DNA from: Arbacia lixula
Taxonomy: Eukaryota > Echinodermata > Echinoidea > Arbacioida > Arbaciidae
Length of the DNA: 64,000 nucleotides
Reading direction: 5' to 3'
Assembly (NCBI GenBank): GCA_963669155.1
Contig: OZ022580.1
Span: forward strand, 25,065,005-25,129,004
The translations under genes were made by a program, and so were the position numbers. Positions 1 to 57,473 of this stretch are shown in pieces; position 1 is the stretch's first letter; every line of letters starts with the position of its first letter. Under the pieces are notes generated by a model. That model was not told the DNA's origin and made no database searches. It worked only from the letters and a program-made list of their open reading frames with translations.

Positions 1-438
1 ACTCATGTGTTAACATCCTCAAAGATGGAACTCTGAAGTATGTGATTTGGAACACCTTCATTTCATTTGATATGGTATTGATATTAGGTATTCTGCAAGG
101 GTTCAATCTTTTCCTATATGTTACGTCTTTAACTCTTAACGCTCCATTAGAGCAATTCAGAGGTGTACGAAAAAACACACATATTCCATCAGCCAGCAGG
201 TGTTCTAGTACAAAATGTGTTAATCAACATGTTTTCTATGTTTTCTATCTTAAAATGGTTGAAGACAAAGTATGGTAATTGTACATTTTAGAGATGCTGT
301 CTGTAGTTTGATGGTAGGGCTTTCCTGTTACAGCTATAGGTATTTTAATGACATTACACTCATCCATATCTAGGGAGTGAGTAAGCAAGATAAATGACTC
401 AGGAAAAGTCAGGATTGTCATTATGGAAGGGAGCAATA

Positions 439-681
439 CTAAACATTTCTGACAAACAGGACCAGACCTTTTCCGCCCTTCTTGCCCTTGGAAGCGCTCT
501 TCTCTCTGCTTTTGACCTTGGGTGGGGCGAGCCCATCCTTGTTGGGCGTGCCAGCCTTGTCTGGTGTCTTGGGTGCATCTTCTTTGGCAGGAGCCTCATC
601 TGCCTTGGTGTCCACCTCCTTCTCGTCAGCCTTCGCATTCTCCACCTCCTTCGGGGTAGTGTCGGCCCCTGGTTCCGCCAT
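439..681 (-). CDS. small Lys/Glu/Pro/Ala-rich hypothetical protein
   Basis: The frame encodes an 80-residue, highly charged, low-complexity protein that starts MAEPGADTTPKE and has a basic Lys/Gly patch (SKGKKGGKG) near its end. I do not recognise the family. The composition resembles small nuclear acidic/basic proteins such as HMGN or prothymosin types, but no diagnostic motif is visible. The start was chosen because the ATG sits in a good context (TAGCATGG) and the frame downstream has coding-like composition. A possible 3' splice site (TTTATTTACAG on the minus strand) lies about 50 bases upstream, so a noncoding leader exon is possible. The last residues (GLVLFVRNV) look unlike the rest, so the real exon may end near residue 72 at a weak GT, with further exons to the left. 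A variant poly(A) signal ATTAAA (minus) lies at 344-349. The frame is divergent from LEXM. It could be a processed pseudogene. Confidence 0.42.
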   Translation of the reverse strand: MAEPGADTTPKEVENAKADEKEVDTKADEAPAKEDAPKTPDKAGTPNKDGLAPPKVKSREKSASKGKKGGKGLVLFVRNV

Positions 682-1614
682 GCTACCGTAATTACTGCAC
701 TGGCTCCAAGTTCAGTTAGATCTGTAAATAAATCAATTGTTAAACAAGCCTCCTTTGGAGAATGGTAGGCCTGCCGCCTTGTCATTACTTCTGCCCATCA
801 GGTTTAAACAATTTATAATCCTTCTTATTTCTTATATTTATGTGTAGTTTGGTCAATGATTTGTTTTTCATTCAAGTATTGACAAATAGAAGACAGGGTC
901 TATCCCTACGACTCTGAACACCTATTGAAACATGTGTGCAAATGAAAATGCATTGAAACTCGATACTCAGCTGATCTTGCTGCTCCTTTATTTGCAAATA
1001 AACAAGCACTGCATAAAAAATGGGCTGCTTCACTCCCTAAGATAAGAATTTTATGTATTCAATGTTATTGTTTACATTTTACAGTCACTTTATGGAATCA
1101 AGATTGTGGCCCATACTCAACACAGAATGAGGCTAAGATCTTTTTGCCCACATGAAATATAACTCTAAAGATTAGATTGGTGTTGGCTCACAATATTTTT
1201 ATAGTGTAATCTATTTCAGCTAGACGTTGTTCAACAAATCAATCATCTTGATTTCTTCAAGAGTTTAAAAAAGTTGTCATTCATTAGATCAATAACCTCA
1301 AAAAAATATTGCTAGACTCACAAAGTCACAGCCACAGGCCAAGGACAAGGTGCATGCCATTAAAAAATATACCCATCATACTTAAGTTAATTTACTATTA
1401 ACTTTATGTGACGCCAGTCGTAGGAGAAGAGATGTCGAGGAGGTGACCATGAAAAATTGAATTTTTTAATTTTTTTACCCTGGAATTTTGTACTGTGGCT
1501 CATATGTTTATCAGATTCCCAGATGACACCCGAGTGCAGTGCTAGTTTAAAATGCAAAAATGGGCAAAATTGTGATCAGAAGATAATGTGACACTTCAAA
1601 AATACTGCAAGGAA

Positions 1615-1740
1615 TCTTAGGCGGCCCCCAGCGGGCCCAGTCATTACTGGCATTAGCCCACACGGACACGGGACACAGCATCACTTACTGCGATAAGCCC
1701 GCTCAGTGAGCGCGAGCGGGCTGATCACCAACCCAAAGTC
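1615..1740. repeat. GC-rich interspersed repeat fragment with hairpin
   Basis: A local GC island in AT-rich DNA. The arms AGCCCGCTC (1696-1704) and GAGCGGGCT (1714-1722) form a perfect 9-bp hairpin. The sequence around it, TTACTGCGATAAGCCCGCTC, recurs in reverse orientation at about 44109-44144 at the end of another inserted element, so this is a dispersed repeat family rather than a gene regulatory site. Confidence 0.5.
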
Positions 1741-2493
1741 TGTAGATTCCTCAGTCCCATACGCTTACAATTTTGTATGGTTTAAATTCTCATTCTAACC
1801 ACAAAAATCCAGTTTCATATACTTTACAATAATTACAAGAACAAAAAATGATAATATACACAATATATGAGATATAAAATGTACCATACGACCAATAACA
1901 CACTTGAATTTCTCACTAGTCTTTTAGAAAATGGGATATTCTCGAGCTTACCCAAGTTTTATACAGACAGAATCCGTACAGTCGGAACCGTTGTCAAGCG
2001 ACCGCAGAATAGTCTAAGATGAAGGCGTTAGTGTAAATGATTATTTAAATTATTTTTCTTCCTCATTTGTATTAGGAAATATGGATCCAAAAAATATTAT
2101 ATTATCCGGTATTTAATTCGTAAAAAGAATATTCACGAATATGACAGCCTGACAGCAAGCTTTTCATCAGAACCAGCTCACTCAGCTCAGACTGAGAAAA
2201 TGTAAACTCTAGTCTATGCCGACTGACACCTACAAAAGGAGTTCAAAGAAAAAGTTCATACTCATCATGTTTAAAATATGGATAAAACTGATATTTTAAA
2301 AAAATATATATATATATATTGAGATGCATTTAAGCAGAACAAAATGTTGATTAGTTTGCGTTTGTTTCGATAAAATTTCTTTCAAAGTGGAGATATCGGT
2401 TTAATCAGCTTCGTGCGTACTGGTCGAGCATTTGAGCGAGACTAGCGCAAATAGTGAATGGGCGGATCTGACTCGCCGAGTCCAGCGTTTGAT

Positions 2494-2516
2494 ATGCAAA
2501 TGTGTACTATAGCAAC
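2494..2516 (+). promoter_or_regulatory. octamer and X-box-like half site upstream of LEXM
   Basis: A perfect POU octamer ATGCAAAT (2494-2501) is followed at once by GTGTACTATAGCAAC (2502-2516). Its right half matches the RFX X-box half-site RGYAAC, while the left half is a poor match to GTNRCC. LEXM/CIMAP2 is a ciliary gene and such genes are often RFX targets, so the site is suggestive. It lies about 275 bp before the ATG. Motif presence is seen; function is inference. Confidence 0.25.
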
Positions 2517-2787
2517 GGCTCTTAGCGTGACCTCGAGTTTACAAACATGTGGATATCAACTCGACTCTGAATACACCTGCTGCAAGCTAGCGCCGTGAAA
2601 CATATAATTCGCAAAACATATATCGGGTATACACAGCGTAAAAATGGACCTAAGTATATGAACATTCCACCCTATTATGTGAATAACTTGTGTAGCATTT
2701 GAATCAACTGGTCTTCAAGTGGTTATCTTCGTTCGTCAAGCTTTTAGGTCTATTTTTTAGCGATCAACCGAGAGGAAATAGAACAAT

Positions 2788-5700
2788 ATGTCTGCTTCTG
2801 TGAAGGCTTTTCAGGGCGCGCCTTTCGGCACGCAGAAAGCAAGGTAAGAACATGGACTTTGATATGAATTGGTATGAATGATTATTGTAGTGCAAATTAA
2901 TCTTCACTTGATTGTGCAATTAAACTTATTATATAGACCTCTGAGTATTATTAATTAACTGTGTTATCAATATCATTTAACGTGTAGGTCCATATTGTAC
3001 TGTATCTCGAATCATTATTATTATTTTGATTTTAAGTTGATCTGCATTTATATTTTCAAGCTATATAGTTAAATCTTTTGCCAATGTAACATGTTTTTTC
3101 TTTTTAAGATACCACATAAAATAAATTGAAACACATATTTCACTAATATGCAAAATACAAGTTTTATTATGAACAGGGATACAGCTTAATGAAATTAAGT
3201 GACTATACTTATAGAGGTATTCATTTTCTGTTGTCTGTTTGTAGGTTCGATGTGTCGGGTGTCCATCCACAGAGTAAAATGCCAGGAACCTACACTCAGG
3301 TCTGGTATGACAAAAAGTCAATGCACAACTTGGTAAGTTACCCCTATAATATGATATACTCACATATATTTGAAGTATTCAATACTAATGCATGAACGAC
3401 TCCACTAAACATAACCAACAACAATTGTAATTTGAAGATTTTTGTAATATTTGGCTTGCTGGCCAGACTATTTTCAATTTAGAAATGTGCTTTTTTTTGC
3501 TTTACAAAAAAAAAAATCATTTACAGGATGAAGCACACTATATCCTTAGTACAGGGCATATAACTAAACATTTCTTGTCAACCATTTTGATATTTGTTAT
3601 TTTAAATAATATAAGAGATAAGGTAGTACCTTGTGATTGAAATAAAGAAATAATTGGAAATGTTTTTTCTCTTGTTTAAAAAAGGGGGCATTCAGGAAGA
3701 CAATGGCTAAAAAATACAAATAAAAGCTTGATACGCTTGTTATAATAAACACTTTCTTGAGTTGATCAATAAACCAAACAAGTCCATATACATGTATATA
3801 TTTTTGTATAATTTCAGTAGCTCCAGAAGGGATTGGGTAACATTCATTCCCTAAAGTATCAAGCTTCTCTCCACATTTCTTAGTTCTGTAAAACCAAAAG
3901 TCTCTCATTTACGTCTCTATAATAATCAATATTTTCCTTTGCATTTTCAAGGCACGGTCTCTCATCCCAGGTCGAAATTCCCATAGAAACCAGTAGAAAC
4001 CAGTAGAGACCGTCTACTGGCTTCTACTGGTCCAGTAGAGTCTACTGGTCTGAAGAGGAACTACGAAATCAAACCAGTAGAAACCAGTAGAAACCAGTAT
4101 ACAAATATTGACTGCTATGAGGGGCACAGTTAAAATCATAAGCCCAAGATGATGTCAAAACCATGACTATGCCCTCAGCTTCGCTTCGGGCATAGTCATG
4201 GTTTTGACATCACCGAGGGCCTATGATTTTAACTGTGCCCCGAATATTAAGCAGTCAATATTTGTTTTATAAACCGAATGTATAGATTCTTCTCATCGAT
4301 TGGTTAAAAGATTTCCTGAACTGACAAGGCCTACAAGATAGCATGTAATAGGCATGTAAATCAACACTCATTGCGCGTACAGGGATTGCGCACACACGAG
4401 CGATATCGCGCGGTGTTGAGGTTGTCTTATTATTTTCCGGGCACAGTCGATTGCCATGCCCCGGGCACAGTTAATTTTGACGTCATCTTGTTAAAAACGG
4501 GGGCACAGCTATTTCGATGACTCTACTTTTAATCAATCAGATGAGAGGAATCTATGTATGAGGTTTATAATGGTTTCTACTGGTCTTCACTACCATTGGA
4601 ATCCACTGGTCTCTAATGGTTTCTACTGGTTTGACTTTGTTTTTTTTACACTCCTTTTCAAACCATTAGATCTCACTGGTTTCTATTGGTTTCTACTGGT
4701 CTTCAATACCATTAGAATCCACTGGTCTCTAATGGTTTCTACTGGTTTGACTTTGTTTTTTCACACTCCTTCTCAAACCACTAGATCTCACTGGTTTCTA
4801 TTGGTTTCTACTGGTCTTCAATATCATTAGAATCCACTGGTCTCTAATGGTTTCTACTGGTTTGACTTTGTTTTTTTTTTACACTCCTTTTCAAACCATT
4901 AGATCTCACTGGTTTCTATTGGTTTCTACTGGTCTTCAATACCATTTGAATCCACTGGTCTCTAATGGTTTCTACTGGTTTGACTTTGTTTTTTCACACT
5001 AATAGAAACTAGTGAGATATAATGTTTTGAAAAGGATTGTGAAACCAGGAGAAACCATTAGAGACCAGTGAAACTTAATGGTTTGAAAAGGAGTGTGAAA
5101 AATACAGAGTCAAACCAATAGAAACCATTAGAGACCAGTGAATTCTACAGGTGGAGACCAGTATAAACCAATAGAAACCAGTAAGACCTAATGGTTTGAA
5201 AAGGAGTGTCAAAAATTCAAAGTCAAACCAGTAGAAACCAATAGAAACAAATGAGATCTAATGGTTTGAAAAGGAGTGTGAAAAATACAAAGTCAAACCA
5301 GTAGAAACCATTAGAGACCAGTGAATTCTCCTGGTATTGGAGATCAGTAGAAACCAATAGAAACTAGTGAGATATAATGTTTTGAAAAGGAGTATGAAAA
5401 ATACAAAGTCAAACCAGTATAAACCAATAGAAACCAGTGAGATCTAATGGTGTGAAAAGGAGTGTGAAAAATACTAAGTCAAACCAGTAGAAACCATTAG
5501 AGACCAGTGAATTCTACTGGTAATGGAGACCAGTAGAAACCAATAGAAACCAATAGAAATAGAGATGCTCATGAATATTCATGCATGTATTTACGTGTCC
5601 TAATTTTGTACTTTTAAATAGATAACCTCCACCTAACCAGATGAAAGGAATTTTACCAAGTAATGATTTCAAGTTTAAACATAAAATAGTGAATGTCACC

Positions 5701-8700
5701 TACTTAAGTGAAGACAATAATGATAACAACAACAAAAATGATCTTCTTTAATGTAAGTTAGAGTAACCAATATCTTATGAACCTTATAACCGTACTGCTA
5801 TATATATGAAAGTCTGTGAAGGAAAGAGTAGGAATTAGGATAGGTATAGGATAGTATAGGAATAGATATAGGATAGGATAGGATTAGGTTAAAACGATAA
5901 GAGATATGCCATAATTCGGATTATCATATACTAAATTTAAATTGATATTTCATCAATAATTTTAATTTTGATTTCTATTGGTCTCCTGATGGCTCCAGTA
6001 GGTATTCTACGAGTTTCTACTGGTATTCTGATGGATCCAGGAGAAATTGCTACTGGTTTCTACTGGCACTCTACTGGTATTTTTCTAATGGTTTCTACTG
6101 GAAATCATTTCACTTTCCATATTCAAACCAGCAGAAAAATTCCAGTAGAAACCAGTAGGAAGCTCTATTGGATCCAGTAGAGATTCCTACTGGTTTCTAC
6201 TGGTCTTCTACTGGTCTTCTATTGGATCCAGTAGAGATTCCTACTGGTTTCTACTGGTATTCTACTGGCATTTTTCTAATGGTTTCTACTGGAAATCATT
6301 TCACTTTCCATATTCAAACCAGTAGAAAAATTCCAGTAGAAACCAGTAGGAAGCTCTATTGGATCCAGTAGAGATTCCTACTGGTTTCTACTGGTCTTCT
6401 ATTGGATCCAGTAGAGATTCCTACTGGTTTCTACTGGTATTCTACTGGTCTTCTATTGGTCTTGTATTGGATCCAGTAGAGATTTCTACTGGTTTCTACT
6501 GGTATTCTTCTGGTATTTTTTCTAATGGTTTCTACTGGAAATCATTTCACTTTCCATATTCAAACCAGTAGAAAATTTCCAGTAGAAACCAGTAGAGATT
6601 CTAATGGTTTTTCTCTACTGGTTTCTACTGGTTTTTCGTCCTGGGATGTCATAAACACACCTTGCTCTTTAATCACATTTTTTTTTTACAAATACACAGT
6701 ACATTAATATTAAATAACATGTTTGTGTCTTTCATCTGAAAACAGAAAACAATATTTTTTGAATGGGGTATTTTGTCGACTCTCTTTACTTTTGGAACCA
6801 TTTTACAGAAGGCACAGGCATGGATGTACTACAGGTGTATAATTTACTTGATATGACATGTTGAACTGCATTCTAACTCTATCATTCCTCCTTCCCTGAT
6901 CTCCAGAAAAGGAAGCTTGGGCCAGGGGTGTATCAGGTGGAGCTGGGTAGCTTCAATGAGGGGGAAGTGATGAGGAAAGCCTCAGGGCCAGGCTGGGCCC
7001 GGGCCTACGAGACAGCTCGTATGGCAGCACTGCCTCATCTACTACACAAGGAACAGTGGGAGAAGAAGCGCATGATTGTGAGTATATATGTATATTTCTA
7101 GCTTGTAAACTACCTAACTGCCATGTTACAGTATGTGGTTAAAAAGTCACATAATTCAGGGCTCAACTCTACCATACTTCTTTCATTTTTTGTTAAATCT
7201 CATTTATTTATTTATTTATTTATCATTATTATTATTTTTTAATTTTTAAGTTGTTTTTTTTAATCTAATTATTTATTATTCATTTTTCTATTTATTTATT
7301 TTATTTATTTATTTATTTATTTAATTTTTTATTTATTTATTTATTTATTATTATTTTTTTTTATTATTATTATTTTTTTTTTTTTTGGGGGGGGGGGGTA
7401 CCCAATTTAGAGCTACAGACCCCTAAATTCTAGAAAATTAAACAGGGGCCCTATACACAGAACCCTAAAAAGGATATTTAGAAAAAGGTTAGTGTGAAGC
7501 CCGACATCATCTATTTATGATCTCATGTTGTTTGCTTTGTTTTGTACTTTGATATGGCATATCAAAAAGGGAGTAACACTTTTGTTATCAATTCTGACAA
7601 TCATAACAAGTCAAATATTAATACAATATGAAAACATATACAGTCAAACCTGTCATAGTGGCCACCTAGCTGTCTATAGCAGCCAGTCTGTCTATAGTGG
7701 CCACTAAAATAATTCTCCTGTGGAGAGATCATGTGTTAAAGAACATGCCTATAGCAGCCGCCTATCTATAAAGGCCACAATTTTTGTTTCCCTTGGCTGG
7801 CCACTATAGACAGGTTTCACTGTATCAAGAAAGACAAATGGACTGGAATTGACTATGTACAAAGTAAACAAAATCTTTCCACATGTTATATATTGATTGT
7901 GCAATATAAACATATTCTTTTTGTCACTGAGTGTATGCGCCAATCATTGTTTCAATGTGAAATGTTTTCTCCTATCGGGCAGTCATTTCGATGGCGTGGG
8001 TTCGAATCCCACCGCTGCCACCATGTTTCAATAGCGTCAGTAACTCCATCTTAGGAACGAGTTTATTAAACGTAACGCGCATGCCTGTACAATGCTGCTC
8101 AGATCATGAATATTCATACACTATTGATTTATTAATTCACTAACATAATGTTTTCAAGTAAAGTATTGTTTACAAATAAAATGTTCCTTTTCATTTTTAC
8201 ATCATAATTCTTTCCCTTTTCTTCTCATCTGGCAGACGAGAAACTTGGGTCCTGGTTCTTACAACATCAAGGACTTCTTGGAGGTGATGGCAGATAGACC
8301 CTGCAGCACTCGCGGCATTTGCCAGACAAAAGCAAGGAGATTCAAACACAATAAAACAGTGAGTGCAGTACCATTTCAAGCCAACCATTAAAACACATAT
8401 AATTCCTTGGTAAAAACATCAAACAAACTTTGAGGTATATGATCAAATTCATCGATTCATGGGCATCTAAAAGACCATAAAATTATTTAATTTAAATCTA
8501 AATAACTAATCCTAAAATTACACTTTGACACTGATCATTGGGATTTTGTTGAACACAATAATAATTATTTTTTTTACTTTATTTTGAAGCATGGAGGGCT
8601 ACATGAACTTGTATAATGTAATTTCATTCAAACGTTCAACAGCAAAAACAGTGTTACCATATAATTTCGCTTCACCTGCTTAGCATGGAATTTACATTGT

Positions 8701-16293: not shown

Positions 16294-19200
16294 GGGGGTA
16301 AGAAAGAGATAAGTAGAGAGCAAGGGTGAGACAAAAGAAAGAAAAAGAGAAAGTGAGAGAGGACACAAAACAGAGATAAATATAGAGTGATAGCGAAACA
16401 GAAAGAGAGAACAAAAATGAGTACACAAATTAGAGATTAGTACAGTGATAGTGAAACAAAAAGAGAACAAGAGAAAGAGAGTGGACACAAAACAGAAATT
16501 AGTATAGAGTGAGACAGAGAGAAAAAAATTGAAAGAGAGAGCATAAGAGAGAGAGAAGAAGAAGGGGTTGGAAGAGACAGAGAAAGAGAGAGGAAGGAAG
16601 AGAGATAGAAAGATGAAAAGAGATCAAGAGAGAGGGACAGAGCAAGAAAGAGAACAAGAGGGAGGAAAGAGAGAAGAAATGAAAGATAAAAAGGGTGAGT
16701 TCGGTTTTGTGTATTGTGCTTAGTAAATATTTAAATTGTCTCTGTCATGTGCTTTTTGATGTATTTCTTTCAATGCTTTTTTTTTTTTTAAAGAAATGTT
16801 GGAATAAATGAACTGATGTGATATACACTTCATACACAAATACTTACTGGTGTGATAGGAGTGGTTGAAACAACATCAACAATGATCTGGTCTCCAAGCT
16901 CAGACATCTGAAAAAATTGGAGAAAAACAGAAAATTGGCAGATAACTGGATTTAGTTATCTTCATACATTTCAATAAATTTGCACAAAAAAAATGTTGAT
17001 TGAACTTGCTGTATACTCTGAAATCCAAGCAAATTATCTTAAACATGCATATCTCATAGAGCAGCAGATTGCTCAGCACACAAAGGGCTAATCCTGTATA
17101 TGTCACATGACTTCACCACGTCACATGACTTTACCATGTCACGTGACTTCATCACATCACATGACTTCATCCCCTCACCTTCCTGCTGGTGCCTGGAGAC
17201 AGCGGCTCATCCTTGATGTCCTTCTCCTCCTCCCCTCCGAGACCGTCCTCAGATCCCAACGACACGTTCAACGCTGCGGACAATGACGTCGCTGCGGTGG
17301 ATGCGCCCAACGTGATCGACGATGCCGCTAACGATGCCGCCTTAATCCCACTGATGCCTTCTCCAGCAGCTAGGGCAGCTCCTAGAGTGAGGGCAGGCTT
17401 CGATGGCAGCTTGCCTGGGGCGAGGGCTTCGTAGCGATGCCTCAAGGTCTGCAGCTCAAACTCGCAGTTAGCCAGAGCTAGCTTGAGCTCGTATAGCAGC
17501 ACCATATCAGACCTATGAAGAGAGGGGAAAAGCAAAGAAATATTACATGTAAAGTGGTCCTACCTGCTTTATATAATACACATGATTAAATGAATATTGT
17601 ACTTTGAAAATGCAATGTATTATTCCATTTATTTAAATCATTTATTTAACCATTATAAAAAACAAAACAACAAAAATATAACATATTTACAAACGTAAAA
17701 TATTGGCAAGGACCCCTAAGAAGCAAATCTGCGTATGGGCGGGTCCCTTAACAAAACATTAACATTGTAATTTTCAAAGAGAGAGAGCGAGCTACCACAT
17801 CACTACCATTTTATTCTCCTTCTCCTATTCATCTTACCTTTCATGCAGCAACTTCCTCCATCTTTGCTTATCATTATGATCATGATCATTATCATCTTTG
17901 CCATCATTATTATCAAGGCATAAGCTTCCTTTCTACCTGACTTCATTGTTGATACGAAAAACCTTGTCTGTAGGTATAGGTCAAAGAGGGATGTAGGAGT
18001 ATAAAGACCATGTCTCCATAAAGACTTTCTTCCTCTGTTCTCACTGAAAGTGCCCTGGATCAACAAGTTTGATTGCACTATACAGTTCCAAAGTGCGACG
18101 TGAAAGAAGCATGTTGTCAAGACAACTGGTTGTAGACTATTTGGGTAAAGCACACAGCAGTGATCACACCAGGAACTCTCATTGGGAGTGCCCAATGTCC
18201 GACCAGTAAAAATTTTACTTGAGTGACGCTGTTTAGAACCATAAACCTACATAACAATGAATATGATGACACCACTTTGCTGGTACTCTATAAGAGATTT
18301 TCCTACCTGACTTCATTGTAGAGCAGGGACACCTCCTCTGTAGGCATCGGTTGGACAGGAATGCCCAGTTCATCCAGGAGATGCTCGATGGCCTTGGTCT
18401 TCTTGAGGCCAACCGCTGATGGAAGCTTCATCTGCCGACGAGGAAGAAGATGGAAGAAAAAAACAAAATTCAAGAAAACTTGTCATTGCATGATCAGAAG
18501 GGGAAAAAATTAATTTAATAACAATCTCATTGCATATAGAACAGGGGATAGAATCAGAATCCTAAATTGCATGAAATAAAAAACATGGCAATTTTGCATG
18601 AGTAGGGCAAAAAAACGATAATGCAGTCATTAAAAATTTCGCAATTTGACCATGACCTATGACCTTTGCCCTATATGACTCAAAACATATTCAATACACT
18701 GCCCGGTCATAAATCATCATTGTAGTAAGTTGGGTGATGTTTGGTCTTGTTACCTTTGAGGAATTGACCTTTGATCTATATGACCCCACATTTAAGTTAT
18801 TGTCCCATCACATTTTATCATTATAGTACAAAGTTTTAAAAATTTTGGTCAACGTACACAAGATTAAATGTTCTTTGAATGTTTCCATGGTGAGAGTGTA
18901 CTAATAAATACTATTTAGAAAATAGCAAAACTTTTGGTAACACCATGTGGTTGTATTCTTTCGGATAATTTTGCAGAGGTCATTCAGCAAATTGAGCCTA
19001 ATCTTCGTGTTTTGAACAAGACAACAGCTGACAGCGTTAGATTTCAAGTTTCACAGGTTCTCTCTACTGCCAAGCCACCTAGAGCCAACATCAGCAAGGA
19101 CGAACGAGCTGCCATCCAAGGACTTCGTAGGGATCCATCCATCCACATTCTCAAGGCCGACAAGGGAAACGCAACAGTCATCATGCGACAGGACGAATAC

Positions 19201-22200
19201 GACAGCAAGATGGAGAGCCTCCTCAACACTTCAACCTACACCAAACTGTCCAGAGATCCGACGGCTGCTACAGAAAGGAGAATCAACGAGAAATTGCTGA
19301 AAATTCATCGAGAGGACATCATACCCAAGCCGTTATACTTCAAGCTTCGATGTTCGTCATCAACCTGCCCTGTGATCTTTGGACAACCTAAAATACACAA
19401 GCCAGATACGCCACTTAGGCCCATCGTCGCAACAAGGGGATCTCCGACATACGACACGGCTCGACATCTTGCTACGATTCTTCAACCACTTGTTGGGAAC
19501 TCATCTCATCACATCGCCAACTCCAAGCATTTCATTGAGAAACTCAACGCAATTCAAATCTGTCCTACAGATACGCTTGTCAGCTTTGATGTTGAATCTC
19601 TCTTCACCAATGTTCCTGTTTCAGAAGCCTGCAGTATCATCCGACAGAGACTAGAGGAAGACGACGCCCTACCAGAACGGACAGCTATGTCTCCAGAGCA
19701 CATCCAGGATCTACTTCTCACATGCCTCAACTCGACTTCATTCCAGTGGCGTAACTCTTTTTACAAACAGGTTGAAGGAGCAGCAATGGGGTCACCTCTC
19801 TCCCCCATCGTCGCCAACATCTACATGGAGGAATTTGAGACAGCAGCACTTCAAACATCGACTCTCTGCCCCAAATTATGGGTTAGATATGTTGATGATA
19901 TTTTCGTCGTGTGGCAGCACAGCAGAACTGATCTCCAGGAATTTCTTTACCATCTTAATCACAGGCACCCAAGCATCAAGTTCACCATGGAGTTGGAGCA
20001 GGATCTTTCCATCCCATTTCTAGACGTACGCATTACAAGGACAGCTGAGGGAAAGGCATCACACCAAGTCTACCGGAAACCGACGCACACGGACAGGTAC
20101 CTCAATTTTAAATCGTTTCATCACCCTTCTGTTTTACAGTCAGTATCCAGTACTCTCATCAGGCGAGCACACGACATCAGCGACGAGGAACACCTTCAAC
20201 AAGAGCTTCAGCACATCAAGACAGCGCTCACCAGCATCAACGGATACCCTCCTCGAAAGGTGAAGACATCTCTACCTCGTCCGCGCACTCCTGCTCCGCC
20301 ACATTTAGCTTCAGTTTTTCTCCCTTACATAGGACAAGCTTCTCACAAGATTCAGCGGATTCTCAAGAACGTCAACATCCAGGTCAGGCACCGATCTTCA
20401 GGTAAGCTGCACTCCAAGCTCTTCACCCACAAAGACAGGAAGCCGCCGGACACTCAACCAGGAGTCTACAAGATACCGTGTGAATGCGGTCAGTTCTACG
20501 TTGGAGAAACCGGAAGAAGCCTTAGGACCAGACTCAAGGAACACCAGACCAGCTTTAGACGGAACGAGTGGGAGAAATCAGCTATCGTCAAACATGCTCA
20601 GCAACAGAATCATCGCATCGACTGGTCCAACGCAGAACTCATCACATCCATTAAGCACTGGCACACCCGGCGCGTGAGAGAAGCCATCGAGATTCTTCAA
20701 CACGACACGGTACCACAGGAGAGCGGACTTGTGATCAACGATATCTGGATGCCACTTCTTCACCACGCACACCGGCAGCACCACCACGCACAACGCACAC
20801 GGAACGACGACCTACCCGAAAGCTCGGGGAATTGAATACGCCGCACTTTCGCGCTGTTTCACGCTCCAGTGCACACCGCGCATTCGCGCCGCACTTTCGC
20901 ACCTATTCAGCTGTTTCACGCTCTAGTGCACACAGCACAATCGCGCCGAAACGCTCTATTCCTATTGGCTGATTTCAGACACTTTCGGGTTATTTCGGAT
21001 CCCTTCGGATCACAGAAATACCCGGCGCGCTCGTTAGTTTCTTCGAGTTATTCTCCGGATGACGGACAGAGCACACTGCCCGAAACGTCGAGACTGATAC
21101 TCCCTCTTTCAGATTTTGAAAGAAATCTATAGTTAGTTGCAGAACTGACTATAACTTTTCTACACTTTTCTCATTTTCTTTTCTTTTCTTTTCTCTTCAT
21201 CACTACTTTGTGACTAGTTCACAACTTTCATCAACACCCACCCTCTTCTTCTACCTCCATTCCATCCCATTTATTTTCGGTTTAAAACACCGAAAACTAA
21301 AGCTAAAAATAGTCTTGTGTAAGTGTTATAAAATATAAAAATTCACCTCTCCTTTTCACTTTTCACTTTCCTTTCCTTTCTTCACCCCATAAGTGGGCCA
21401 ATTATCCGAAAGAATACAACCACATGGTGTTACCGAAAGTTTTGCTATTTTCTAAATAGTATTTATTGGTACACAAGATTGTGACAGATGGACAGACGGA
21501 CATGACATAAAGCCATTCAGCCACTTCATAGTGGAAGCATAATTAAATAAAACTTACCTTCTGGCTCCTGAGGTACACACCGGACTGCTTGAAATCTGGG
21601 AACTTGATGCCTCCAGTCTCCAAGATCTACAAAATATAAGAGAAATATAGACTAGAAACAGAGGGAAAATAGCCAATATTTCTTGTAAAGTGGTCTGATT
21701 TCACATCACTTTCTGTGGGGAAAAATATCTTAAATGAAATTCTGTAGAACAAAAATACAGCTTGAAAAACAATCAAATTAATTAATTTCATCTAAATTGA
21801 TTTAAATCAGACAAATTTATTATCTAATGATAATAGAAGAACAATATCACAATATATTTCCATGAACCAAACGACCAATCAAACCTCAGTGCGCTCTGAA
21901 ATGTGAGATTCACGCAGAAATGTTCACAAATAGGCATTCATACACAAGCTGGCAAAATCTGAAAAGACAGCGTGCCCTGTGTACGGTACTTAATGCCGGC
22001 ATTTACACAAAATCTCACATGTCAGCAAGCACCGAGATCTTTATGCACCCACTGTGCATGTCTTGGCTCCAAGTATATGGCTACTCACCAAACATCACAC
22101 TGATAGTGCGATTTTAACAGCAGTCGAGATTTCACTTCCGATAATTTATGAGCTTTCTTGGTTCACACACACACAGAAAAATGGACAGATTGAAACAACA

Positions 22201-46900: not shown

Positions 46901-49406
46901 AGATTGAATTGATCAAAAATTCATATGACAAAATCCCAAATTAACCCTTGTGACTTTTGAAAAGTGACATTTTTGTCTTTAAAATTTGCCCACTCATGCA
47001 TGACTAATTGGATTAATGTGATTTTCACACATAGGTTAGTCAATAGGTTAAGGAACAATCCTGCAAAAAAAATTTGCCCAAAACCTCTTCAATAAAAAGT
47101 TATCTAATTTTGCATAGGGGGACTTACTTTTTTGTCATGTTTAGATTGTCAAAACTCTTTATATAAAAAGTAATATAAAAAAAAGTGATATATGGATGTG
47201 TGTATACTATCTCTACAATGATATACAATGTATGTTCATACTTATTGAAGATATCTACTTGCAATGGGGATATAAATTATATAAACCTACATTCATCTAT
47301 TTTTAGTATGTTAATTAACTTTCTCCAGTTAACAAAGACAAACATAATAAAGTGTACTATGGTTAACATATCAGAGTGGTATTTGCAGGTACATGTAGTT
47401 CTGAATAAATTACTCTTTATGAAGCAAGTTAATGTGATTGTGCCTGAAACAATGTAACCACAATGTCTTGGTAAGAAACTGCAAAAGCAGATTAACTAGG
47501 GAAACACTTCACTAAACACTGATGAAAAATTGTATGGCTTTGGAATTGTGTAAAGTGTTTTAGTCATGTTGGCCTGATCAAACTGGTAACTCCAGTGATG
47601 TCTTGCTTAAATGAAAGGAGTTCTTACATGTACATGTCTGCTTCTGCACAAATCAATTGAGGTCTGCATTTTGTAAGTGATTTTATTTATGTTCTGTTTG
47701 TTCTAAAGTACTTCATTTACGGGTCCTTGGGTGTTGTATTACGGTGTTACACAAACAGTAGGGGTGCTTGGTATTAGAAGACATTTTGAAATTGTGAAAT
47801 TTATTCTTCATATTTTAGGTTTTTCAGCTTTTAGGGAGAAAATGCTTTTCACAAGTGTTTACTAATATTCATAGCACTGGTACAGCGTGTTCTGCAAGAA
47901 ATATACAACATTTGTTTGAAGGCACATTTGTTTTTTTAAATTAACAATATCTGCTATATCTTTCCCATTGCCATTCCAATGTATCTACAGGAAACAAGAC
48001 TTGGAAGGCTGGTTAAGATTGTGCGAAAGAAGGCGACAAATAGCAACCTCAAGAAACGATGTACCGCCTTGATAAAGCAGTGGCAGTCTCAGTTCCTGCC
48101 ACCCAGTGCTGTCAAACCCCCAAGAACTGAGTCTCCTGCTCCCACCAGTAGTGGTCAAGATGAGGTCAAAGGGCAGGAGGAGTCGTCGACATCTGATGGA
48201 CAGAAAGCAAAGCCTGCCAAGCAAACGCCAAATGCAACGCCCGTGGATAAGAGCAAGTCTGAAAATCTGCGAAGGAGAAAAAGAGAGAACGAGAGCTCCC
48301 CGTCAATTTCTCCTTCCACCCAGAGTCCTCCGACAAAGAAGCTACTCTCGTCTCGAGGAAAGTCACCCCTCGTGCCCGAAGAAGGCAATGGTCAGGATGA
48401 CTCCAGTCTGAATGGAGTCTCGTTAAAGCGGGATGGTGACCGCAGGGTAACAGCAATTAAAGACTCGTTAAGGGTAGCATCTCCAAAGACTTCTAGTGTG
48501 TCTCCTAAGAACAAACTCAGCATTAGCAAAGAGAAAGGTTCATCAAAGAAGTTAAAAAAGGATGGATCCCCTTCTCCAAAAATAAGGACAAAAGAGCCTA
48601 GTGCGAATTCAGTATCTACTTCTTTGCAGTGTAAAGTTAATAAGCCAGAGGATAATTTATCGCCAAGTATCAGTAGATCAAAATCTGAGAAGAGATTAAA
48701 AATCTCACCCAGATTAGGTAATGTGACCATTGGTAAGAAAAGAACCACCTCGCTTGAAAGATCCCCGATGCCACGAAATGATTCTTCCGCTTCAAACTCT
48801 CCGGCTGCACGGGGAGTAGTTCCTCCAGCTCAACCCCCCACTGTCATCACGACAGATTGGGACATGGCAGGCGTGAACTATGGTGGCAGCGGAGAGTCCT
48901 CTAGGAGCGGGACACCTCAGGAGGCCTTTGACGGACCAAGCTCGTTAAAATCGCTATCAATATTTGATTTGGACTTCAGGGAAGCAATGCATCCAGAGCC
49001 CTCAATGGAAGGCTTTGTTGATTCCATGGCTTCACCCATAGACCGAGACGACACCCCACCTCGCGCTCCCGAATCGTTGAGCTTGTTTTCGCTGGATGAG
49101 CCATTCAGCGATGGCCTCCCCGTAGAGATGGACTCGCCCCAGGCGTCTCCTGAGCCGGATGAGGAGGAGGAGGAGGAGCGGGAACGATCTCTGCAGAAGA
49201 TGGAGACCCTGGAAGATGAGGAGCCCCCTACACCACCTTCCCCCGTCCTGGAGAGTGACATTGAGCGCATCCACACTGAGGAGTGGCCTGGAGTCAACGG
49301 CTGCTACAATGACAGGGGAGAGTGGTTTGACTGGTCCCAGTGCCTCACTGTCCAAACCGACCTAGAAAACTCCTTACAAATTTTACCATACGTGTGTATC
49401 GATTAG
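40954..49406 (+). CDS. MED26: Mediator complex subunit 26
   Basis: Three coding exons: 40954-41016, 45806-45880, 47991-49406 (GT-AG, 1554 nt, 517 aa; human ~600). The N-terminal TFIIS-like domain (LW domain, about 1-85) reads PTPSQIKELLLSAID, NPITKDALE, ETRLGRLVKIVRKK, KKRCTALIKQWQ. In human MED26 this domain recruits the super elongation complex and TFIID to Mediator. A long low-complexity Ser/Pro/Lys-rich middle is followed by the conserved C-terminus (EEWPGVNGC, GEWFDWSQC, LQILPYVCID), the MED26 signature that docks on Mediator. The start was chosen at the ATG giving MPPTPSQIKE, since exon 1 is 63 nt with a GTAAGC donor. The 1.4-kb last exon holds all the disordered region. The introns carry several transposons. 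Confidence 0.96.
42085..43133. mobile_element. non-autonomous hAT-like transposon with 8-bp target duplication
   Basis: The ends TAAGCCTGAGTC and GACTCAGGCCTA are inverted, followed by longer imperfect inverted sequence (ACCGGTGTTCGAT at the left, ATCGAACACCGG at the right; CGATGCATCGA in both). GCCAAGAC flanks both sides exactly (42077-42084 and 43134-43141). No transposase frame is present. It lies in MED26 intron 1. Confidence 0.8.
43372..44180. mobile_element. foldback, AGCTCAAAGGAATTG family, copy 3, split by an insertion
   Basis: The left part ACAGCTCAAACTTAAAAGAA with AGGGAAAGGG and CAGTTCAGCATGAAA is followed by the right part TGCTGAACTGGAC up to CCCTATGCCAT. The terminal AATTCCTTTGAGCTTGATTGT appears only after the 43557-44144 insert. 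It lies in MED26 intron 1. Confidence 0.7.
43557..44144. mobile_element. element inserted inside foldback copy 3
   Basis: The 588-bp block is flanked by CCTATGCCAT on both sides (43547-43556 and 44145-44154). It begins GC-rich (CCGCGCAGCGGGAGC) and ends with the hairpin AGCCCGCTCACTGCGTGAGCGGGCT, shared with 1696-1722. No coding frame. Class is uncertain; a 9-10 bp duplication is unusual for mariner and nearer to hAT or MULE-type. Confidence 0.6.
44966..45446. mobile_element. foldback, AAAGGGATAGTCCACCCTGAAATTAA family
   Basis: Left arm CAAAGGGATAGTCCACCCTG and right arm AGAGTGGATTATCCCTTTAA are complementary. Arms run inward for ~150 bp (GTGAAGGTTTGACGAAAT; CATATGTTGT / CAGCATATGGGAGAGC). 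Noncoding, in MED26 intron 1. Confidence 0.75.
46156..46188. repeat. (ATATG)n microsatellite
   Basis: About six tandem copies of the pentamer ATATG/GATAT in MED26 intron 2. Confidence 0.85.
46411..47141. mobile_element. Tc1/mariner-like non-autonomous element with TA duplication
   Basis: Left end AACGCAACAAAAAAGTAAGT and right end ACTTACTTTTTTGTCATGTT are inverted and flanked by TA (46409-46410, 47142-47143). The inverted similarity extends about 170 bp (AGAGGTTTTGG / CCAAAACCTCTTC; TGTGTGAAAATCACATCAAT / ATTAATGTGATTTTCACACA). The internal frames are short and AT-rich with no DDE signature. It lies in MED26 intron 2. Confidence 0.8.
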
Positions 49407-54408: not shown

Positions 54409-54458
54409 TATGCTTTTTCTTCTACACAATTATCTGTAAATAAGGATTGACTTTATCA

Positions 54459-57400
54459 ATGACGAACATTTCCCATGATCCTGATAAAGTTACGCAGGAT
54501 ATTTGCGCTAATAATGATGAATTGAAATGTGAATTGGATCCAAATGATATTGCTTCGGGTCTCATTTCCTCAAACTATTATACTGAGACCTCAACAAAAA
54601 ATATTTTCAAAAGTTTACCTGATTCTTGCCTGTCTATATTACATCTTAATATTAGAAGTCTCAACAAGAATTATGAACAATTTCGGTTATTTCTAGATAA
54701 CACAGGAGTTCCCCAAAATACAGTACTAGGTGTAACTGAGACGTGGCTTACAGAAAGAAACAATACATTGTTTTCCATTCCTGGATATGATATACTTACA
54801 AATAATCGTAAAGATAAAATAGGTGGAGGTGTTGCATTCTTTGTTCCAAGTCAGTTTGAATATGTTATAATTGAAGACATGAAATTGATGAATGACACTG
54901 CTGAAACCTTGTTTATTGAGATTTCTGATCGCAATAAAAGAAAAACTATTTTGGGAGTTGTTTACAAGCCACCTCAGAGTAACCATACTGATTTTCTGAA
55001 CACATTGAATAATTTATTACACTTTCACTCCGTTCAAAACAAAAAGTGTATCATTATGGGAGATTTTAACTATGATCTTTTATCCAGTGATGCTAATATT
55101 CCTGCACATGATTTTTTAGAGACATTCCTTTCTGCCTCTTTTTTGCCACTTATTTCTAGACCAACTAGAATAACCAATACTTCAGCTACTCTTATTGACA
55201 ACTTTTTTTCAAATGTTCGTTCTGAATTTAAAGCTGGCATTGTCCTGTCTGATATTTCTGACCATTTTCCGATTTTTGTGTATTATTCTGAACGGTTTCA
55301 GGCAAATAACTCTTCTAGTCATGTACGTAAAAGACGTATATATAATGACGAAAATATGTGTCGATTGAAATTAAGTCTTGAAGAAGAATCTTGGGATGAC
55401 GTGTTTAATACAGAAGATGTTAATCAGTCGTATGAAATATTTGTTGAAACTTTTATGTCGCATGTAAATCGAAATATTCCTTTTTCTAAACCTAAGTCTA
55501 AAAATTATAAGAAATTGCCCAGACTACCTTGGATAACCAATTCAATTCTACGATCAATCAATCGGAAAAATAAACTATACTATAAATATATATCTAAACT
55601 TACTGATCAAACAAGGATTCATTATACCAATTATAAGAATGTACTTACAGGGGTGATCCGTACTGCTAAAAAAGAGTATTATCATGATCAATTCAATCGT
55701 TACAAAAATGATATTAAGAGAACATGGAATATCATCAATGCTACCATCAATAATAGACCAAAGCATTCTAAGATAACTAAGCTTAGACATAATGATACTG
55801 TCGTCGAGGATGAAGCTCAGATGGCAGATATTTTCGATGATTATTTTTCCAATGTTGGTTTTAACCTTGCCAGGCGCATACCATCAACACATTGTTCATT
55901 TCACCACTACCTGGGGGACAGCAATGAAAGTTCTATATTTTTTTCTCCTACGTACCCGCAAGAAGTAATTGAAATAATTTCTGGCCTAAAATTAAATAAG
56001 AGTGCAGGATTTGATGAAATTGATAACAATATTTTACAGAAAACTATGAATTATGTAGTTGATCCTCTTGTACATATATTCAATTTGTCATTACTATCTG
56101 GACATATTCCAGAATCAATGAAAATTTCAAAGATAATCCCAATTTTCAAAAAGGGTGACAATGCACTAACGAGTAATTACAGACCCATCTCACTGCTTAC
56201 AACATTATCAAAAATCCTTGAGAAGTTGGTCCATATACGAACAATAAAATTCTTTAAAAAGCACAACATCCTTTCTGATACTCAATTTGGCTTCCGGGAA
56301 AAGAGTAGCACTACACATGCAATACTTTCTTTAGTTCAAACAGTTGCCAAAGCTACTGATCAGTCTTCTAATACGGTTGGTTTGTTCATAGATTTTTCTA
56401 AAGCATTTGATACAGTTGATCATGATATCCTACTTTACAAACTTTCACACTATGGAATTCGGGGAAAACCGTTGACGTGGTTCATGAATTATCTTAAAGG
56501 GCGCTCCCAGTTCGTTTCACTGAACGATCATTTCTCTGAACCTAAACCTGTCCTTTGTGGAGTTCCGCAGGGCAGTATTCTTGGCCCACTTCTATTCATT
56601 ATTTATATAAACGACATTGAGAAGTCATCTGGTTTGCTTCAATTTATACTTTTTGCTGACGACTCGAATATATTTTTGTCACATAGCGATCCAGATCAAT
56701 TGACGCAAATTTTAAATAACGAACTTAAAAGTGTTACAAATTGGATAAAAGCTAACAAACTGTCGCTTAATTTAGACAAAACTAGTTACATGCTATTTAG
56801 TAATAAGCTTGCGACCTTGCCAAATGATATCGTATTTGATGGTACTCTCATTCAAAGGGTCCGATCAACTAAATTTTTGGGGCTAATCATTGATGAAAAA
56901 CTATCTTGGAAAGCACACATTGACAATATCTGCAAAATCATTGCTCGCAACACTGGTATTCTTAGCAAATTAAGACAATTTCTACCTAAGTATATTATGT
57001 TATCCTTGTATTCCACGTTAATTCTTCCTTACTTGAATTACGGACTTATCGCCTGGGGCAGTGCAGCAACTTCCCAAATTAATAGACTCTTTATATTACA
57101 AAAAAGAGCAATTCGTATTATTTATAATGCAGATTTCCGGGCACATACGAATAATCTTTTTCTTAATGACAAGACTTTGAAAATTAAAGACTTGTATATT
57201 TTTCAGCTTGGACAGCTAATGTACAAGCTCAGCACTAAACAATTACCTATGCCTCTTAATGATATGTTTGTAAAAAATGATTCGATTCATAGTTACTTCA
57301 CTCGCCAGGCGAGCTCCTTCCATCTGCCACTAAATAGAACATCGTTTGCTCAAAAGACATTCGTTTTTACAGGTCCAAAACTCTGGAATTCTCTTCCAAA

Positions 57401-57473
57401 TGATATTATACAATGCAATTCAATACAAAGTTTCAAAAGGAGACTTAGAGGCTTTCTTCTGTATAGCTACTAG
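54459..57473 (+). CDS. LINE ORF2 protein (apurinic-like endonuclease, reverse transcriptase)
   Basis: 1004 aa from ATG (MTNISHDPDK). The EEP endonuclease is at about 60-275: LHLNIRSLNKN, GVTETWL, GDFNYDLL (201-208; D202, N204) and SDHFPIF (D268, H269), so its catalytic residues are present. The reverse transcriptase is at about 480-800: IPIFKKGD, SNYRPISLL, LFIDFSKAFDTVDHD (D645), GVPQGSILGPLLF, and FADD (732-735; catalytic D734, D735), then NKLSLNLDKT and KFLGLIIDEKLSW. The C-terminal region ends near PKLWNSLPNDI, as is usual in jockey-superfamily LINEs. No stop or frameshift, so it may be recently active. Confidence 0.9.
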   Translation: MTNISHDPDKVTQDICANNDELKCELDPNDIASGLISSNYYTETSTKNIFKSLPDSCLSILHLNIRSLNKNYEQFRLFLDNTGVPQNTVLGVTETWLTERNNTLFSIPGYDILTNNRKDKIGGGVAFFVPSQFEYVIIEDMKLMNDTAETLFIEISDRNKRKTILGVVYKPPQSNHTDFLNTLNNLLHFHSVQNKKCIIMGDFNYDLLSSDANIPAHDFLETFLSASFLPLISRPTRITNTSATLIDNFFSNVRSEFKAGIVLSDISDHFPIFVYYSERFQANNSSSHVRKRRIYNDENMCRLKLSLEEESWDDVFNTEDVNQSYEIFVETFMSHVNRNIPFSKPKSKNYKKLPRLPWITNSILRSINRKNKLYYKYISKLTDQTRIHYTNYKNVLTGVIRTAKKEYYHDQFNRYKNDIKRTWNIINATINNRPKHSKITKLRHNDTVVEDEAQMADIFDDYFSNVGFNLARRIPSTHCSFHHYLGDSNESSIFFSPTYPQEVIEIISGLKLNKSAGFDEIDNNILQKTMNYVVDPLVHIFNLSLLSGHIPESMKISKIIPIFKKGDNALTSNYRPISLLTTLSKILEKLVHIRTIKFFKKHNILSDTQFGFREKSSTTHAILSLVQTVAKATDQSSNTVGLFIDFSKAFDTVDHDILLYKLSHYGIRGKPLTWFMNYLKGRSQFVSLNDHFSEPKPVLCGVPQGSILGPLLFIIYINDIEKSSGLLQFILFADDSNIFLSHSDPDQLTQILNNELKSVTNWIKANKLSLNLDKTSYMLFSNKLATLPNDIVFDGTLIQRVRSTKFLGLIIDEKLSWKAHIDNICKIIARNTGILSKLRQFLPKYIMLSLYSTLILPYLNYGLIAWGSAATSQINRLFILQKRAIRIIYNADFRAHTNNLFLNDKTLKIKDLYIFQLGQLMYKLSTKQLPMPLNDMFVKNDSIHSYFTRQASSFHLPLNRTSFAQKTFVFTGPKLWNSLPNDIIQCNSIQSFKRRLRGFLLYSY

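Follow-up and report, generated by a model that had tools for sequence, protein, structure and literature searches.

What kind of sequence repeats a ten-base word many tens of times within a few kilobases (kb), in both orientations? We addressed this question in the sea urchin Arbacia lixula, using a window of 64,000 nucleotides (contig OZ022580.1 of assembly GCA_963669155.1, positions 25,065,005 to 25,129,004 of the forward strand; window coordinates below are counted from its first base). The original prediction had placed a bidirectional decamer array at 3975..6645 of this window and considered it an unusual satellite. Our results indicate instead that the array is, almost certainly, one copy of a dispersed DNA transposon with fixed ends and target-site duplications, present in several hundred copies. 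With a probability of roughly 0.75, we consider this element to be a non-autonomous, Foldback-like transposon of the cut-and-paste type, whose arrays would act as binding banks for a transposase.

The array itself is real and stands far above random expectation. Of the 33 occurrences of the word CCAGTAGAAA in the 64-kb window, 32 lie within 3990-6631, where both orientations are represented, whereas shuffled sequences contained 0.17 occurrences (mean of 100 shuffles). When one mismatch to ACCAGTAGA was allowed, the element (3966-6645) contained 99 sites, compared to 11 over the remaining 61,320 base pairs (bp); first-order Markov simulations of the element yielded on average 0.87 such sites, with a maximum of 3 (n = 100). 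Orientation switches repeatedly, as predicted (43 forward and 56 reverse sites). The most frequent spacing between neighboring sites was 10 bp (40 of 98 gaps), and the tandem higher-order periods that we computed (115/116, 186 and 191 bp) agree with the units of about 116 and 190 bp first proposed. The expected folding into hairpins was also recovered: the folding energy of the imperfect palindrome at 4562-5560 is -354 kcal/mol, compared to -105.6 (standard deviation 5.9) for 20 shuffles, and that of the segment 5965-6645 is -153.4 kcal/mol, compared to -54.5 (standard deviation 3.65) for 20 shuffles. The predicted end (6645) is the exact last base of the element, but the predicted start falls 9 bp short of the true one (3966), and what had been described was the array without the terminal repeats, the target-site duplication, the core (~5561-5965), the probable insertion (~4101-4570) and the dispersed copies.

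The genome-wide distribution of the array sequence, a search that the original prediction had called for, shows that it belongs to a mobile element. In the assembly of 606,990,701 bases (590 contigs), the 17-mer CCAGTAGAAACCAGTAG was found 1904 times in forward and 1847 times in reverse orientation (3751 matches), whereas its reversed control was not found at all. A 26-bp pattern of the element end, with at most two mismatches, matched the 607-Mb assembly 437 times forward and 432 times reverse (reversed control: 0), which corresponds to about 435 copies if each has two ends. Among the 100 matches listed, all without mismatch, facing neighbors lie 1.2-4.2 kb apart. We retrieved eleven stretches of contig 1 for comparison and, later, 20 places where only one end was listed. 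Element copies start with CCCAGGTCGAAATTCCC and finish with TTTTTCGTCCTGGG. The two-ended set comprises 16 copies: nine contained entirely in a single stretch (the window copy and eight others), one spanning adjoining loci and six recovered later. All nine copies with both ends in one stretch are flanked by the same 2 bp on both sides. Three left ends were unpaired within their stretch; the partner of one lies in the next locus, with matching flanks (AT), and the other two (L013 and L018) were excluded from the duplication count. Matching pairs were also found in five of the six further copies, which brings the 2-bp duplication to 15 of 16 two-ended copies (chance probability ~1e-17 at 1/16 each). 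The duplicated pairs (AT, TT, AT, TC, AC, AG, TA, CC, TG, TA, AG, AC, AA, CA and TT) are varied, indicating that the target is non-specific. The CC copy (L016) sits in a poly-C tract and is hence uninformative; it is also the only copy with a matching third base.

These copies are similar to one another (91-99% pairwise identity among nine aligned copies). Across the 16 two-ended copies, length ranges from 2110 to 4158 bp and near-matches to ACCAGTAGA, in both orientations, from 58 to 205 per copy. DNA-transposon mobility is thus shown by the ends, the duplication and the dispersed similar copies. An assembly artefact is unlikely, because the 16 two-ended copies have different flanks and the published assembly rests on PacBio HiFi and Omni-C data (PMC11310861). 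Contig C590 (15,740 bp) carries cox1, in which two AAA codons occupy sites of conserved asparagines, in agreement with the echinoderm code. The 20 one-end places resolved into six two-ended copies, three composites with a second family (L029, L030 and L035) and 11 truncated or rearranged copies. Near 2999-3004 of L013, we observed a CCCAGG end within a frame of 508 amino acids (aa) that resembles, by eye, a Gypsy-type polyprotein; a stretch of Ns is found on the opposite side.

Could the array nevertheless be a satellite that adjoins, or was captured by, a transposon? Its tandem higher-order units would fit such an origin, as would the longest copy (4158 bp, 205 near-motifs), in which the left array is expanded relative to the others. 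However, the termini bound the arrays exactly in two-ended copies, no 17-mer CCAGTAGAAACCAGTAG of the window lies outside the element, and all the arrays that we read, which represent part of the sites in the genome, are within whole or truncated element copies. Moreover, the two-ended copies contain 7-14 of these 17-mers each (mean 11.1; n = 16), so that the 3751 genomic matches would correspond to about 337 such copies. Given how common truncated copies are, this figure agrees with the count of ends and leaves no excess of free array. A satellite origin is therefore highly improbable. The original prediction had also envisaged that a transposon terminal region might explain both orientations, and in substance this is what we found, since the arrays are subterminal regions, although no family name is assigned.

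The general plan of the element consists of a 12-bp left terminal repeat, a left array, a core of about 0.4 kb, a right array and a 12-bp right terminal repeat, with the arrays beginning directly inside the termini at both ends (family consensus of the terminal inverted repeats: CCCAGG[T/A]CGAAA). In the window copy, the target-site duplication AT is found at 3964..3965 and again, identical, at 6646..6647. The left terminal inverted repeat, CCCAGGTCGAAA, occupies 3966..3977 on the plus strand, a start common to the two-ended copies, and its counterpart, TTTCGTCCTGGG, occupies 6634..6645 on the minus strand, likewise common to the copies. The outer part of the left array (3978..4100) has decamer sites at 3989-4093. 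It is followed by a probable nested insertion (4101..4570, approximate borders), which interrupts the left array with inverted repeats of its own (pairs 4101-4116/4250-4265 and 4267-4297/4540-4570); no decamer is found between 4093 and 4576. This interval also presents a near-perfect 64-bp palindrome (4116-4179/4183-4246), separate from the 31-bp inverted arms. The inner part of the left array (4571..5560) is made of ~116-bp units, first reverse and then forward, forming one giant imperfect palindrome. The core (5561..5965) is non-repetitive and non-coding, with no long open reading frame (409-419 bp in the nine-copy alignment), and the right array (5966..6633) contains ~191-bp units with decamers in both orientations, as seen in its periods, folding and decamer sites.

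A second family of similar plan emerged from the composites. L018, L029, L030 and L035 have in common the flank TTGTTGTGGCC to the left of their CCCAGG end, as well as an identical junction inside the element, and they continue into another array, built on the word GCAAGCTTGC in both senses. L018 contains 29 sites within one mismatch of GCAAGCTTGC, and AAGCTTGC is found there 20 times forward and 16 times reverse. The right end of this second family, GATTTTTCTATAAGGG, was identified in four different flanks. The opposite end, CCCTTACAGAAATCC, begins at position 279 of L018 and delimits a unit of 2911 bp (279-3189) with AA on both sides; L018 is the sole copy with both ends, and the 2-bp AA duplication is therefore that of one copy only. 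The ends of the family read CCCTTACAG.../...CTATAAGGG (CCCTTA...). The four loci (L018, the fourth composite, and L029, L030 and L035; right parts) thus represent a second array transposon that harbors a fragment of the CCAGTAGAAA element. The simplest reading of these sequences is that a second transposon of like plan took up part of the first and then moved with that cargo. In L037 (3027-9900), we observed a CCAGTAGAAA element inserted in a third array, again in both senses, whose core is ACATGTTCC; this array has ~110-bp units, with forward sites at 3027-4326 and reverse sites from 6718.

We then compared the element to known systems. Elements of the P type generate duplications of 7-8 bp, and the TU elements of sea urchins have repeats of about 15 bp and duplications of 8 bp; our element differs from TU in both repeat and duplication length, and it is on this general description of TU only that the two are set apart. 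By its build, it resembles Tetris/Foldback of Drosophila, which is likewise non-coding, with subterminal arms built of repeats and strong self-folding (PMC4079207). That account knows of no autonomous copy of Tetris, and gives it terminal repeats of up to 1,735 bp and duplications of 8-10 bp; it also cites reports of Foldback elements from sea urchin (PMC4079207). Unlike Tetris, our element has a perfect terminal repeat of only about 12 bp, a 2-bp duplication, a palindrome inside the left array and a decamer unit in two senses. Relative to the long terminal inverted repeats of Foldback type, both ends do carry arrays of subrepeats, yet the strongest inverted self-matches fall inside the left array (nine copies, three best matches each). 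In Galileo (P superfamily), the binding sites of the THAP domain lie about 70 bp from the terminus and also within the tandem repeats contained in the long terminal repeats (PMC3688188). These many transposase-domain sites in internally repetitive ends provide the model that we apply here, although no THAP transposase is linked to our element and its termini and duplication length differ; as to Foldback and Phantom elements, the discussion of the Galileo paper describes the role of their tandem repeats as untested (PMC3688188).

The Galileo model, together with a second family that repeats the plan with another word, leads us to infer that the arrays are binding banks, a function to which we give about even odds when taken on its own. 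Under this model, a transposase encoded elsewhere would bind the short word many times in both subterminal arrays and in either orientation. Such a bank of sites would strengthen the recognition of the ends, and the non-coding passenger would thereby compete for the enzyme. The arrays would grow, shrink and become homogenised through unequal exchange, slippage or conversion, and their hairpin potential would mostly be a by-product of a bidirectional array.

To evaluate conservation, we measured mismatches to the consensus in the 16 copies, over the core and all the element sequence to its right, using columns that were at least 80% filled and keeping CpG columns apart. Mismatch was 2.35% in the core, 1.17% in the decamers and 0.77% in the spacers; among 5000 permutations of the labels, 2 reached the core-decamer difference and none the core-spacer difference. 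Taken as a whole, the right array is therefore less variable than the core. This fits homogenisation, but selection on the decamer does not follow. Indeed, several observations weigh against the account that we favor. Decamers are no better conserved than spacers (4303 of 5000 permutations equaled or exceeded the observed spacer-minus-decamer difference), which counts against the strongest form of the binding-bank mechanism. There was no consistent helical phasing in nine copies (best periods 10.5-11.5 bp), and one of the 16 two-ended copies (L022) has no duplication (AT versus TA). Finally, we recognised neither a transposase in the copies read nor an autonomous copy among the loci examined.

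Alternatively, the arrays might act by their structure: the left palindrome, as a transcribed or extruded hairpin, would feed small-RNA silencing or drive rearrangement, and the decamer would merely be the unit that was amplified. This would account for folding energies far beyond those of shuffles, for the long inverted match that we observed inside the left array in all nine copies self-compared, and for a decamer conservation that does not exceed that of the spacers. However, the right array, although shorter and less palindromic, likewise consists of repeats in both orientations, and the arrays are located directly at the mobile ends. We consider a structural role of this kind quite unlikely.

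If the arrays are indeed binding banks, which transposase might they serve? The open reading frames of the window copy, the longest copy and six further two-ended copies correspond to array read-through, L022 being an exception with one microsatellite frame. For the remaining eight two-ended copies, the comparison was made at the DNA level only. At the one-end loci, a Pfam scan of twelve longer frames gave matches exclusively in frames outside the element copies: DDE_3 (L028), UCH and Ulp1 (L024), endonuclease frames (L036) and Mpp10 (L039). The frames of L032 are external as well. The matched frame of L024 (6222-9899, minus strand; 1226 aa, with ubiquitin C-terminal hydrolase and Ulp1 protease domains) lies downstream of a truncated copy and may belong to another mobile element.

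The first candidate is a transposase of EnSpm/CACTA type (CMC), of which the element could be a passenger. In plants, En/Spm (CACTA) elements carry multiple short subterminal sites in both orientations. Frames of this type are present in the genome: PF02992 has two matches, and the 808-aa frame of L041 has 16, of which six contain an open frame of 673 aa and have nearly equal scores (C1:53922713, C7:25671204, C12:2239674, C12:6322795, C22:63512 and C1:3972429), which suggests a recently active autonomous family. In addition, CMC-type elements make short duplications of 2-5 bp, a range that includes the 2 bp found here; however, their termini are mostly CA..TG, as opposed to CCC..GGG in our element (PMC12730594). 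Our element also has many more sites than En/Spm. Near-decamers with at most one mismatch were absent from L040, L041 and L043, and no 17-mer CCAGTAGAAACCAGTAG was found near C1:3972429, the one of the six 673-aa copies examined, which lies in a region where the listing of 17-mer matches is exhaustive. At position 2912 of L040, we noted a 12-mer that differs from the element end by one mismatch; it is adjacent to a poly-C tract and points away from the transposase frame. We take it as chance, although it alone among our results could hint at an EnSpm link. An EnSpm-type partner was thus not linked to the element at any of these four loci, and the CMC passenger reading appears somewhat unlikely.

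Other transposases could be considered, either of the PHIS type (ISL2EU and kin) or from a relative of piggyBac with a changed duplication. Duplications of PHIS elements span 0-4 bp, and piggyBac termini are 5'-CC..GG-3', similar to those of our element (PMC10045372). However, ISL2EU duplicates AT and usually starts with GG (PMC4482050), whereas AT represents two of our 15 duplications and our termini start with CCC; Pangu duplicates ANT (PMC4482050). As for piggyBac, its duplications are 4 bp long (PMC10045372) rather than 2 bp, and a matching third base was found here only in the poly-C copy. We regard this pair of candidates as unlikely.

Judged from sequence, the termini and the duplication together match none of the superfamilies compared. 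It is conceivable, if quite doubtful, that the two families represent an undescribed lineage, which would be defined by CCC..GGG termini, non-specific 2-bp duplications and an address word specific to each family (CCAGTAGAAA and GCAAGCTTGC). The 17-mer CCAGTAGAAACCAGTAG and the 17-base left end were not found in the literature texts searched, but a Repbase name may exist. No exact match to the 17-mer was detected in IMG/VR viral contigs, and no structured-RNA match was obtained at 3900-6700 with Rfam gathering thresholds.

Elsewhere in the window, open frames of 1009 aa (54444-57473) and 638 aa (18919-20835) present reverse transcriptase domains and probably represent a LINE-like (long interspersed nuclear element) sequence and another retroelement. 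A further open frame (47940-49406) matches Mediator subunit 26 (Med26 and Med26_C).

If correct, the binding-bank reading would provide an explanation for one class of bidirectional arrays, those which programs for tandem repeats label as odd satellites. Unclassified repeats represent 19.53% of the A. lixula genome in the assembly paper (PMC11310861). If the arrays are binding banks, their natural sizes would constitute a dose series for the number of sites that a passenger needs to win the transposase, and the sister family with its other word would provide a control of specificity. If the two families do form a lineage of their own, the word, repeated from tens to at least 100 times, and the specificity of the transposase would change together, and the arrays would then represent a readable recognition code.

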